Of a stretch of DNA of 64,000 nucleotides, positions 4,196 through 29,742 are shown piece after piece (position 1 is the first letter of the stretch; each line of letters opens with the position of its first letter). The notes below the pieces were generated by a model, which saw nothing but the letters and a program-made list of their open reading frames with translations, was not told the origin of the DNA and searched no databases. The position numbers and the translations under genes were made by a program. Source of the stretch: Baaleninema simplex PCC 7105 (GTDB lineage Bacteria; Cyanobacteriota; Cyanobacteriia; Cyanobacteriales; Geitlerinemataceae); the NCBI RefSeq assembly GCF_000332355.1, contig NZ_KB235959.1, forward strand, positions 351,260 through 415,259. The letters run 5' to 3'.

Positions 4196-4834
4196 ATGAC
4201 TGACACCCCACAACGTATCGTCTTTTGCGATTTCGACGGAACCATCACCGCCGAAGAAACCTTTGTCGCCATGTTGAGGGAATTTACCCCAGACGTCGCC
4301 GATCGCTTGCTTCCTCAAATTTACGAGTTGAAACTCACCTTGCGCGACGGCGTCCGACAAATGCTCGAATCGATTCCCTCCTCTCGCTACCCGGAGGTGT
4401 TGGAATTCGCCAAGTCGAAAGCCATTCGTCCGGGGTTGGTGGAACTGCTGGATTTCCTCGAGGAACAACAGGTTCCCTTCGTGGTGATTTCTGGGGGATT
4501 GAAAGGAATGGTAGAGGCGGTTCTCGGAGACTTACAACCTCGCGTTCGGGGAATTCACGCCGTTGAAGTCGATACCACGGGAGCGTATTTCCAACCCCAC
4601 TCGGAGGTTGAAGGGGAGACGGAATTGGTGGCGAAAGTCGAAGTCGTCAAACAGTACGGCGTTGACGATTGGGTGGCGATCGGGGATTCGGTGACGGATT
4701 TGAATATGGCGATGGCTGCGCCGTTAGTCTTCGCTAGAACTCGTCTGTGCGAGTATCTCGAGGAACGGGGGAAAGCTTACGAACCCTTTGAAACCTTTTT
4801 CGACGTGCGCGATCGCCTGTCGCAATTGTGGTAA
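4196..4834 (+). CDS. mtnX: HAD-superfamily phosphatase, MtnX-like
   Basis: A 212-residue haloacid-dehalogenase phosphatase. The DxDGT nucleophile motif is present as DFDGT at residues 12-16, followed by SGG and the Mg-binding GDSVTD near the C terminus. Size and helical cap (HAD subclass IB) match 2-hydroxy-3-keto-5-methylthiopentenyl-1-phosphate phosphatase of the methionine salvage pathway. No other salvage gene is next to it, so the substrate is inferred from family resemblance. The ATG at 4196 is preceded by AGGAGA at 4187-4192, which decides the start against a 50-residue longer frame. The gene stands alone, divergent from prfC. Confidence 0.75.
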   Translation: MTDTPQRIVFCDFDGTITAEETFVAMLREFTPDVADRLLPQIYELKLTLRDGVRQMLESIPSSRYPEVLEFAKSKAIRPGLVELLDFLEEQQVPFVVISGGLKGMVEAVLGDLQPRVRGIHAVEVDTTGAYFQPHSEVEGETELVAKVEVVKQYGVDDWVAIGDSVTDLNMAMAAPLVFARTRLCEYLEERGKAYEPFETFFDVRDRLSQLW

Positions 4835-4844
4835 GCGTAATGTT

Positions 4845-4877
4845 CTTCACCACAGAGACACAGAGGACACAGAGAGG
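4845..4877. repeat. dispersed CACAGAGACACAGAGGACAC repeat, copy 1
   Basis: A purine-rich 33-bp sequence starting CTTCACCACAGAGACACAGA. Near-identical copies lie at 25409-25441 and 45594-45628, each in intergenic DNA just after a gene or gene remnant. The function is unknown. Confidence 0.75.
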
Positions 4878-4973
4878 TTTTTTGCATTTCGCGAATTCAG
4901 TTTGAATTCTGTCTGAGTTCTAGCGACCTTTGAAGCGCGATCGCCGAAACTCCAGAAAAAACAATAACAATGG

Positions 4974-5288
4974 AAAAACAGCGACACCAAGATCGGCTTG
5001 TTGAGCGACTTCCCCATATTTCTTCGAGGTTCCTTGGAGGTGAATTAAGCGACTGCTTAGCTGCATGGCTCCCATTCTCTAAGTGGAGGAAATATCAACG
5101 TCTCGATAAGATGCCGCTGTTTTTCGTGATGGGACAGATGTTATGTTCGACAGCGTTTTTTACCTCTTTACTTGTGTGGACTGCGCTGTTGTGTATCTGC
5201 CTAGAAGCTATCTAGTAGCTTCTAGCTTTAATGTAGTTTGTTTTTGAGAAGACGACAAGGGCTTGTAACCAAAGTTTACACTCTCGGA
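4974..5288 (+). ncRNA. tandem structured RNA, unit 1 of 4 (family not recognised)
   Basis: First of four diverged tandem copies. A long-range helix pairs AAAAACAGCG (4974-4983) with CGCTGTTTTT (5115-5124). It encloses a small TAAGC/GCTTA hairpin and the core GCTCCCATTCTCTAAGTGGA near 5069. Downstream, CAGAT (5135-5139) pairs with ATCTG (5195-5199), where the other units have CAGAC/GTCTG. ACAGCG (5150-5155) pairs with CGCTGT (5184-5189). A terminator-like AGAAGCTA/TAGCTTCT hairpin (5203-5222) is followed by a T-rich stretch. The 26-nt block GACAAGGGCTTG...AAAGTTTAC (5254-5279) ends the unit. An 81-codon frame overlaps it at 4970-5215 but is not kept in the other units. Family and function are unknown. 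Confidence 0.7.
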
Positions 5289-5359
5289 AATTCACCTGAA
5301 TTGCTCGTCAGACTCTTCGATTTCAAACTCAACTTTTATAAGGCGATCGCCTGGCAAAA

Positions 5360-5705
5360 ATACGCCAAAAAACAACAACGTTCGGAGTGGTCTAACGCTT
5401 GAATTTCCCCTTATTGCTTGAGTCTATCTGGAGATGCCTTGAGTAACTTTTTTGCAAAGTCTACTTTGGCAAAGCTCCCTAAGAACTAGGTGGTGGAAAT
5501 TGTCGTGACGCGATCGAACGTTGCTGTTTTTCGTGATGGGACAGACGTTAGAATTGACAGCGTTTTTACCTCTTGAACTTGTTTGGACTAGGCTGTTAAG
5601 TAAGTCTGCCTGGATTGAAGCTCCTTTAAGCTTCTAGTTTTAGAATAACGCGCGTCTTTTTTTTTGACAACGACTTGATACTAAACTTTACGTTCGTGAA
5701 AGTTT
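5360..5705 (+). ncRNA. tandem structured RNA, unit 2 of 4
   Basis: Second copy, the most diverged in its middle. The long-range helix is CAACGTTCG (5376-5384) with CGAACGTTG (5515-5523): different bases from unit 1 but the same position. The loop between the arms holds a GCAAAGT/ACTTTGGC hairpin where units 1 and 3 have AAGC/GCTT. Then follow GTGATGGGACAGAC pairing with GTCTGCC, ACAGC with GCTGT, and a GAAGCT/AGCTTC hairpin (5617-5633). A run of nine T lies at 5656-5664, as in an intrinsic terminator. The terminal block is GACAACGACTTG...AAACTTTAC (5666-5691). Confidence 0.7.
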
Positions 5706-5774
5706 TACTATGTTGGAGGTTCTTGGGGTTTAAAACTGACGCTAAAGATACCCTTGAGAGAGATATCGCCCTAA

Positions 5775-6097
5775 ACCATAACAACGCCCAGATCTTCCGA
5801 ACGAGTGACCTCTTCTGGTTTTTGAGATTTTCTGGAGATGAACTAAGCAACCGCTTAGTCTCATAGCTCCCATTCTCTAAGTTGAAGAAGTATCAGTTTC
5901 TAGATTGGGCGTTGCTGTATTTTGTGATGGGACAGACTGTTGATTTAACAGCGTTTTTACCTCGTTTTAACTACTGTGGATTAGGCTGTTTAATGTCTGC
6001 CTAGAAGCTTTTCTTTAAGCTTCTATTGTTAGAGTAATCCTTCTAAAATTTTATGGCAAGGGTTCGACACTAAACTTTACGTAAATCTTAGAAGGTG
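5775..6097 (+). ncRNA. tandem structured RNA, unit 3 of 4
   Basis: Third copy. The long-range helix is CAACGCCCA (5782-5790) with TGGGCGTTG (5906-5914), a third independent pair at the same place. Inside are the AAGC/GCTT hairpin and the core AGCTCCCATTCTCTAAG near 5864. AACAGC pairs with GCTGTT, CAGAC with GTCTG, and AGAAGCTT with AAGCTTCT (6003-6024). The terminal block GGCAAGGGTTCG...AAACTTTAC (6055-6080) is clasped by CCTTCTAA (6039-6046) and TTAGAAGG (6088-6095), so this 3' part probably folds too. Confidence 0.7.
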
Positions 6098-6154
6098 AGA
6101 ACGACTCTTGAAACGTTAGTGAATTTCTGAAATTCTTGCTTTGCTCGATCGCCT

Positions 6155-6470
6155 TCAAATACGACAACACCCACAACCGATGTAACGATTAACTTCCCCA
6201 ATCTTTTAGACTCCATAGAGGTGAACCAGACATCGCCTAGTTGCATAGCTCCCATTCTCTAAATGGAGGAAGTATCGATTTTTCGTGTGGGTGTTGTGGT
6301 TTTCACGTAGGGGACAGGCGTTAGAGTTAACAGCGTTTTTACCTCGTTAGAAATCGTGTGATATAGGCTGTTTTTGTCTGCCTGAAAGCTCTTGTTTTAG
6401 CTTTGATTATTACTTTAATGAGTCCTGCGATCGATGACAACCCCTTGAAACCAAAGTTTACTGCCATGAT
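6155..6470 (+). ncRNA. tandem structured RNA, unit 4 of 4
   Basis: Fourth copy. The long-range helix is ACAACACCCACA (6164-6175) with TGTGGGTGTTGT (6286-6297), again with changed bases on both sides. The core AGCTCCCATTCTCTAAATGG lies near 6247. AACAGC/GCTGTT, CAGRC/GTCTG and an AAAGCT/AGCTTT hairpin (6385-6404) follow. The terminal block GACAACCCCTTG...AAAGTTTAC (6436-6461) is closed by ATCGATG and CATGAT. No fifth unit follows. Confidence 0.7.
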
Positions 6471-6504
6471 AGTAGTACTTATTTTCTATGAACTTATGCA
6501 AAGA

Positions 6505-6577
6505 ATGGGGAATCGGGAACGGGGAACGGGGAATCGGGAACGGGGAATCGGGAATGGGGAATCGGGGAACGGGGAAC
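6505..6577. repeat. short tandem repeats (GGGGAAC/GGGGAATC)
   Basis: A run of GGGGAAC and GGGAATC heptamer-type units after the RNA array. It is the complement of the TTCCCTG-type repeats found at 8862, 13848 and 55871. Such short tandem repeats are common in filamentous cyanobacterial intergenic DNA. Confidence 0.8.
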
Positions 6578-6608
6578 AGAGCATAGTATCTCGCCATACG
6601 CTCCCTAT

Positions 6609-6647
6609 CAAAAGAGCCACTCTAGACAGACTCTAGAGCGGCTTTTG
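6609..6647. terminator. bidirectional intrinsic terminator
   Basis: A near-perfect hairpin, CAAAAGAGCC-CTCTAGA-loop-TCTAGAG-GGCTTTTG, with T runs on both strands. It lies downstream of the minus-strand DUF4278 gene and of the plus-strand RNA array, so it can serve both. Confidence 0.8.
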
Positions 6648-6706
6648 AAGCGAGTTATGGATTGTCGCTGGGAAATGTTGCGAGGATTGCATCGAGACTG
6701 AAAACC

Positions 6707-7018
6707 CTACAGGGCGAATTCAGCCAGTCCTTCGAGAGAGCGACGCAACATTGACTTGCGTACCGTGTCTTTGTGTTCGGTACGATGCATCATCATGTAG
6801 CGAGAGCGATCGCTGACGGGACGTTGTTGGTTTTCCTGAGTCGTGCGATACGCCACACCGCGATATTTCAGTTCCACCGTCGGCTGTTGAACCACCGTTT
6901 TGTTATCCGTGTGGAACCGCCAGTCTAAACCGCGATATTTTCCAACTGTTTTCACAGGAGGGGTTTCTACTTCAGGAGCAGTGTAGTTATAAGGAATTCC
7001 GCGATAAGTGAGTTGCAT
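6707..7018 (-). CDS. DUF4278 domain protein
   Basis: A 103-residue protein beginning MQLTYRGIPYNY, the opening typical of the small cyanobacterial DUF4278 family. A second related YRGVAYR motif lies near residue 52. The middle and end are polar and basic, with no signal peptide or membrane segment, so it is probably cytosolic. The function of the family is unknown. A strong Shine-Dalgarno AGGAGGCG lies just upstream of the ATG at 7018, and the terminator at 6609-6647 follows the gene. It is divergent from lipA. Confidence 0.8.
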   Translation of the reverse strand: MQLTYRGIPYNYTAPEVETPPVKTVGKYRGLDWRFHTDNKTVVQQPTVELKYRGVAYRTTQENQQRPVSDRSRYMMMHRTEHKDTVRKSMLRRSLEGLAEFAL

Positions 7019-7313
7019 GATTCGCCTCCTACAGCTATCGAAACGAGTTGAGTGAGGCGCGTTCCTTCGGGAGTTGTCCCTACTTCCGTCCCTTAGCGGT
7101 GAGTATTTTTACTTGGTTGCTTGAGGGATGAACGATTTACTTTCTGTATCTATTGTTACCGTATTGGCGAAAATTGTCAAGCATATTAAGAAAATTAATC
7201 AGTTGTGACTTAAATCACAGGGTACGATCGCGGCGATCGCTGCCGGACGTTCCGAAAACCTCTCCAAAAGCCGATGGGTTAAAATAATCGGGCAGTTTGT
7301 AAATAGCGAGCGA

Positions 7314-29285: not shown

Positions 29286-29742
29286 GGTAGAGAAAGCAGT
29301 CATAAGCCGGGTTCTGTTCTCGACGCCACCAAGGGCATCGAGGGCAGTTATCTATCTGGGACGCCTGTTACCAGACGCCTCGAGCGGTTCTCCAAAAGCG
29401 AGACCGGTAAAAGACCAACCGTCGTCTCTTCGACCTTGCACCCACCTGGGGTTTACCGAGCCAGCACCTCTCGATGCTGCTGGTGCGCTCTTACCGCACC
29501 TTTGCACCCTTACCTTTTACAGTGAGCAGTCATCAGTGAACAGTGAACAGTGATGACTGCCTGCTGTAAAAGGCGGTATGTTTCTGTGGCACTGTCCTCA
29601 CGCTCGCACGCACTGGGCGTTACCCAGCAGGTTCGATCTTTGGGGAGCCCGGACTTTCCTCGAACGGACGTTCTGTCAGGGCGATCTTTGAGGGTCGCCA
29701 CCGCGATCGTCAGTCCGCAACTGCCTCGCCTACTTTCTCTAC
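29286..29742 (-). ncRNA. rnpB: RNase P RNA
   Basis: Read on the minus strand it contains the universal GAGGAAAGTCCGGGCTCC near the 5' end, CAGTGCCACAGAAA, GGTAAACCCC, and at the 3' end CAGATAGATAACTGCC and ACAGAACCCGGCTTA. The P1 helix pairs the ends (AGAGAAAG near 29740 with CTTTCTCT near 29290). These are hallmark elements of bacterial type A RNase P RNA, which matures tRNA 5' ends. The outer ends are approximate. A 59-nt repeat hairpin sits inside (29514-29572). Confidence 0.95.
29514..29572 (-). repeat. short-tandem-repeat hairpin inside rnpB
   Basis: CTTTTACAG...CTGTAAAAG encloses CAGTCATCA...TGATGACTG, with GTGAACA heptads in the loop. It is fully palindromic, so it can extend a helix of the RNA without disturbing the core. 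The same GTGAACAGTGA words occur at 15400, 48370 and 50590. Repeat insertions in the P12 helix of cyanobacterial RNase P RNA are known from the literature. Confidence 0.85.

Follow-up and report, generated by a model that had tools for sequence, protein, structure and literature searches.

A 64,000-nucleotide stretch of the genome of the cyanobacterium Baaleninema simplex PCC 7105 (hereafter the window; contig NZ_KB235959.1, positions 351,260 to 415,259) carries near its left end four diverged tandem units that can be aligned with one another, each followed on the plus strand by one copy of a 26-nucleotide block. An earlier reading of this DNA, made from the letters without database searches (the sequence-only reading), had placed the blocks at 5254, 5666, 6055, and 6436, to the right of every unit including the last and never ahead of unit 1, and had asked whether they are promoters or domains of a folded RNA. 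All four starts were reproduced exactly in the window sequence and the pattern holds, with block copy 3 showing the largest deviation from the earlier consensus (GGCAAGGGTTCG...). Comparison with homologous units makes it very probable that the block is the upstream part of the minus-strand promoters of a structured RNA gene present in four tandem copies. The array would then be composed as follows, in window positions and with the promoter hexamers as predicted.

5254..5279, minus strand: block 1, with the 16-bp motif at 5279-5264 and the -35 hexamer TTGTCG at 5258-5253 (one base beyond the block), promoter of RNA copy 1
5230..5235, minus strand: -10 hexamer TACATT of RNA copy 1, spacer 17 bp, 7 bases ahead of the 5' hairpin
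4961..5223, minus strand: RNA copy 1, structured RNA, 5' hairpin starting at 5222
5666..5691, minus strand: block 2, with the motif at 5691-5676 and the -35 hexamer TTGTCA at 5670-5665
5642..5647, minus strand: -10 hexamer TATTCT of RNA copy 2
5355..5635, minus strand: RNA copy 2, 5' hairpin starting at 5634
6055..6080, minus strand: block 3, with the motif at 6080-6065 and the -35 hexamer TTGCCA at 6059-6054
6031..6036, minus strand: -10 hexamer TACTCT of RNA copy 3
5761..6024, minus strand: RNA copy 3, 5' hairpin starting at 6023
6436..6461, minus strand: block 4, with the motif at 6461-6446 and the -35 hexamer TTGTCA at 6440-6435
6412..6417, minus strand: -10 hexamer TAAAGT of RNA copy 4
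6144..6405, minus strand: RNA copy 4, 5' hairpin starting at 6404
6039..6095, no strand: the clasp described earlier around block 3 (CCTTCTAA at 6039-6046 and TTAGAAGG at 6088-6095), its left arm inside the promoter spacer

The block belongs to the unit wherever the unit is found. From the collected matches, 18 partial or contig-edge ones were left out and near-duplicates were then removed (227 to 162 units). A weight matrix built solely from the four window copies was applied to the flanks of homologous units in other genomes. On the 3' side in the plus-strand reading, 117 of 153 units scored above the 99% level obtained with shuffled flanks, and in 114 of these 117 the block lies 28 to 32 bases from the end of the unit core; on the upstream side, only 9 of 152 passed. 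This recurrence is not chance. Conservation across 71 thinned units starts sharply at ACAACAACAGC and stops sharply at the block, which is integral to the conserved element. Its core reads TGnwACyAAAsTTTAC on the unit (plus) strand, with a free C/G choice at the center, and the conserved 16-bp motif on the minus strand is GTAAAsTTTrGTwnCA. Genome-wide, the motif is exact at three of the four copies and differs at the fourth, and the two additional places with one mismatch are no more than a reversed-pattern control yields.

The strongest covariation in 146 aligned units traces the helices of one long hairpin, and the exceptions within these helices distinguish the strands. Read on the plus strand, they are A-C or C-A rather than G-T (401 versus 170 cells), with 26 pairs having more A-C than G-T and 8 the opposite (sign test, p=0.003); the pairs had been picked by Watson-Crick criteria alone, which are strand-symmetric. 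The A-C excess on the plus strand therefore corresponds to G-U wobbles on the minus strand. Consensus folding of 101 divergent units, thinned from the 146, gave -29.8 kcal/mol on the minus strand versus -17.3 kcal/mol on the plus strand, and single sequences folded better on the minus strand in 69 of the 101 representatives. RNAalifold on the minus strand recovered 33 pairs, 21 of them with compensatory changes. When a 49-pair minus-strand structure was evaluated in 50 sequences drawn from 96 references, 95.0% of cells were paired, with 162 double changes and both-sided changes in 32 of the 49 pairs, whereas 0 of 500 shuffles were as good and slid versions paired 37.9-45.1% of cells. With a conserved fold backed by compensatory changes, the unit is very probably a structured noncoding RNA gene.

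The RNA is about 260 nucleotides long and has a 5' hairpin GAAGC...GCTTC. A U-rich tail marks the minus-strand 3' end of 99 of 150 units, compared with 19 for a control window, and the CTTTAAA that precedes the plus-strand start of the unit is this same U-rich end; the long helix together with the tail likely constitutes an intrinsic terminator. In five related loci (L006, L008-L011), an additional, shorter element (AAACAACACCYAGCC...GGCTRGGTGCTG) follows the block on the right at a distance of about 200 bases; judged by eye, it looks like the RNA's long hairpin with the other domain missing. The large internal loop of the RNA contains a -10-like TAnAAT, which was viewed by eye as a possible polymerase-binding decoy and is not claimed as such.

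Promoter elements were sought on the minus strand of 121 units with the GAAGC of the 5' hairpin as the anchor. TANNNT lies 3-10 bases ahead of the hairpin in 115 of the 121 units and exactly 7 bases ahead in 94, and 58 TTG matches occur upstream of it at spacers of 16-17 bp. All four window copies share one layout, consisting of the 16-bp motif, a short gap, TTGNCN, 17 bp, TANNNT, 7 bases, and the hairpin; in copies 1 to 4, the -35 hexamers are TTGTCG, TTGTCA, TTGCCA, and TTGTCA and the -10 hexamers are TACATT, TATTCT, TACTCT, and TAAAGT. Both the distance of the -10 hexamer and the spacer, within 16-18 bp, agree with a predicted sigma-70-type promoter. In themselves, the hexamers are unremarkable; what speaks for a promoter is the shared, conserved geometry. 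The arrangement resembles a sigma-70 promoter with an upstream activator site in its TANNNT, its TTG at 16-17 bp, and the conserved motif just upstream of the -35 hexamer, and differs from it in that the 16-bp motif is confined in this genome to the one RNA gene. The promoter idea of the sequence-only reading was thus right in kind; the strand is minus, not plus, and the hexamers are other than the GACAA and TTTAC named there.

According to the model that we propose, each of the four copies of the RNA gene would have a sigma-70-type promoter of its own and be transcribed from the minus strand. The block would supply the 16-bp motif, presumably read by an activator or contacted by the polymerase, and, beyond a short gap, the -35 hexamer TTGNCN; the -10 hexamer would lie 17 bp further on, outside the block. 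Transcription would start about 7 bases past the -10 hexamer with the hairpin GAAGC...GCTTC and would yield an RNA of about 260 nucleotides, ended by the long helix and the U-rich tail. The block stands to the right of every unit, the last included, and is missing before unit 1 because transcription would run from right to left. The earlier argument that a last copy with no unit after it speaks against a promoter falls away once the genes run on the minus strand.

Set against the strand asymmetry of the wobble pairs, the fixed promoter geometry, the end of conservation at the block, and a neighboring gene on the same strand in relatives (see below) are several points that weigh the other way. 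A generic sigma-70 scan recovers just 2 of the 4 minus-strand promoters, and the region contains about as many promoter-like matches as shuffled sequence does (3 found, 2.2 expected). The four window copies, taken alone, fold slightly better on the plus strand (-77.5 to -82.7 versus -71.9 to -78.8 kcal/mol). Genuine helices include some of the 8 pairs in which G-T outnumbers A-C, namely, 49:120 and 42:127, as well as 69:105 and 70:104, the latter two by single cells. Finally, a promoter does not account for the slight surplus of inverted repeats on the two sides of the block.

The reading of the 16-bp motif itself, which spans about -42 to -57 relative to the start of the hairpin, can be refined in two ways within the promoter model. 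It may, tentatively, be a UP-type RNA polymerase contact, rich in A and T, that requires no dedicated factor. Its place directly upstream of the -35 hexamer and its A and T tracts suggest such a contact, whereas the near-invariant G and C positions and the almost free C/G center look more like a specific site. Less likely still, the motif could be bound by RpaB or another OmpR-type response regulator, which would make the RNA light- or redox-regulated. The HLR1 element of RpaB is KTTACAWW-N2-KTTACAWW (PMC13421787 and PMC9241938), and the motif lies close to the activating positions, about -45 to -66, that the former reports. The likeness consists of two half-sites, a 10-bp period, and an upstream activating position; the best matches average 12.0 of 16 letters, versus 10.2 (standard deviation 1.1) in shuffled blocks, and two units reach 15 of 16. 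However, one half-site, the first, is poor and deviates at both T positions, leaving the match partial, the motif is oriented against the direction of transcription, and the genome holds no other similar site beyond the control level. We describe the motif as partly resembling HLR1 and do not assign it as such. Two other regulators matched poorly. Sites of NtcA have the consensus GTA-N8-TAC, to which the units match on average in 4.1 of 6 letters, none of them in 6, and the fit to a CRP site is also poor.

It is improbable that the block is instead the 3' domain of an RNA from the plus strand, either clasped or single-stranded, and is presented there to a protein or a target RNA. This was the folded loop favored by the sequence-only reading, on account of different inverted repeats around copies 3 and 4. 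Both exist as sequence, but ATCGATG and CATGAT at copy 4 pair imperfectly. On the plus strand, the conserved element does stop sharply at the block, and some lineages (u3, L130, L192, and L005) have inverted repeats on either side of it. We compared the clasp with swapped flanks in 126, 109, and 92 divergent units. With 30-nucleotide flanks, the mean gain is about 1 kcal/mol (permutation p about 0.0002 to 0.001), and a clasp of -10 kcal/mol or lower occurs in 24 of the 92 units compared with 16.7 expected; the excess is significant by permutation (p 0.0002) and by the Wilcoxon test (p 0.004, or 0.01 to 0.02 with looser thinning), and control windows further out contain no excess of inverted repeats. 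The clasp is nevertheless weak, barely above swapped flanks, and not a general feature of the units, a strong one being missing in most. No column of the block covaries with another as a helix, and the covariation in the 146 aligned units reveals no conspicuous stem in which the block takes part. Wobble asymmetry, promoter geometry, the strand of the neighboring gene, and consensus energy all favor the minus strand. A plus-strand promoter for the next unit, with GACAA and TTTAC as its -35 and -10 elements, has in its favor their spacing and a single plus-strand promoter-like match at 6445-6473, and is contradicted by single-copy units, which carry the block with nothing comparable after it, by the lack of a unit after the last window copy, and by the plus-strand starts of homologous units, ahead of which a positioned TAnnnT was looked for and none was found.

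The RNA matches none of the families compared. Searches of Rfam 15 on both strands (gathering score or expectation value [E] ≤ 5) returned no family match at the units, and in six relatives the only matches at the gathering score were transfer RNAs and glutamine riboswitches. The 6S RNA (RF00013), a noncoding RNA with a long interrupted hairpin, was considered because of that likeness. It has no match in 4800-6700, the best match in the genome being elsewhere (G000:C4:2045504); in each of the eight unit-bearing genomes from the DNA search, the best RF00013 match is away from the units, and cmscan found no 6S in the units. Phage and plasmid collections contained no match to 4900-6500. In the literature, supplementary tables not covered, no description of the RNA was recognized. 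The cyanobacterial noncoding RNA of PMC3610870 also occurs in tandem copies; no relation to it was found, though no alignment aimed at one was made.

In the window genome, a DNA search gave four matches to the units, one each and confined to this array, and the final covariance model agrees. A DNA search across the family to which the organism belongs matched 8 of 14 genomes. A covariance model (R1) that was confined to the core and excluded the block matched 196 of 291 genomes of the order (E ≤ 0.01) and 128 of 388 genomes of the class (E ≤ 0.001), 88 of the latter being listed as other orders. A pattern scan of named genomes returned 56 stretches from Microcoleus, Tychonema, Oscillatoria, Nostoc, Anabaena, Laspinema, Leptolyngbya, and others, 3 of them with noncyanobacterial titles and no profile match. 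In a phylum-wide sample of 386 genomes, the final model (R2) matched 100 at E ≤ 0.001, comprising 6 of the own family (including the window genome), 87 from the rest of the order, and 7 from other orders of the class, with no match outside the class at this threshold; it misses twelve genomes of the same order. Copy number ranges from one to nine per genome, with up to nine in tandem in Oscillatoria sp. PCC 10802 (G128; loci L073 and L113 on one contig), where many spacings are about 340 bases.

In many relatives, an uncharacterized protein gene of about 253 residues lies 3' of the minus-sense RNA on the same strand (for example, L086:5676-6428, L082:2448-3206, L214:3180-3947, and L215:3617-4375), and the terminator-like tail of the RNA often ends only a few tens of bases before it. 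Across the phylum sample, 70 genomes have both, 30 the RNA alone, 17 the protein alone, and 269 neither, an association whose significance is inflated by shared ancestry. Of the 70 genomes, 68 entered the adjacency count (G195 and G229 were left out for broken gene matches), with one RNA copy per genome, so that multi-copy genomes may be adjacent via another copy; RNA and gene are adjacent on the same strand in 38, with gaps of 7-1323 nucleotides (middle near 70). The gap is at most 374 nucleotides in 35 of the 38, and an RNA at the largest distance is hardly a leader. In the window genome, the protein gene is on another contig (G000:C8:313057-313809) with no RNA beside it. In G159, G830, and G229, the gene match contains stops and the RNA is kept, which argues against a purely cis role of the RNA. 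The protein has no Pfam match (E ≤ 0.01), no PADLOC match, and no solved relative; its one NCBIfam match is nonsignificant (E 0.11), and an AlphaFold model from two sequences was useless (mean predicted local distance difference test score, 37.6). The C-terminus gives, by eye only, a nucleotide-binding impression.

In the window, a gene for a DUF4278 protein (6707-7018, minus strand), a type that includes PirA, adjoins the array, with a glutamine riboswitch (7056-7136, minus strand) upstream of the gene. Such a riboswitch is also found near a unit in L006, L008, L010, L011, and L013. Directly to the right of the array, 6503-6580 are made up of successive short repeats of the form GGGGAATCGGGAAC; many cyanobacteria have comparable short tandem repeats. 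The RNase P RNA gene, an Rfam match, is at 29289-29736 on the minus strand.

The proximity of the RNA tail to a same-strand gene in many relatives recalls the actuaton, in which a small RNA is the 5' part of a longer messenger RNA (PMC5386190); unlike it, the four window copies are free-standing and the gene is on another contig. Our working idea is that the RNA may be a leader or a partner of the neighboring protein, with free-standing amplified copies in the window. More specifically, and as a conjecture that may well prove wrong, the blocks could drive an unrecognized RNA family of the class Cyanobacteriia that arose as, or doubles as, the leader RNA of the conserved protein. In other genomes it would have become a free-standing RNA that acts in trans, is in some cases amplified in tandem, and possibly partners the protein, under a promoter with a dedicated activator site, the block. 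A puzzling repeat thereby becomes a gene model of four minus-strand RNA genes with predicted promoters, and the case illustrates how a false "RNA domain" can arise from reading the wrong strand. What emerges is a large structured RNA without an Rfam family, widespread in one cyanobacterial order, present in further orders of the class, and often located beside a conserved uncharacterized protein.
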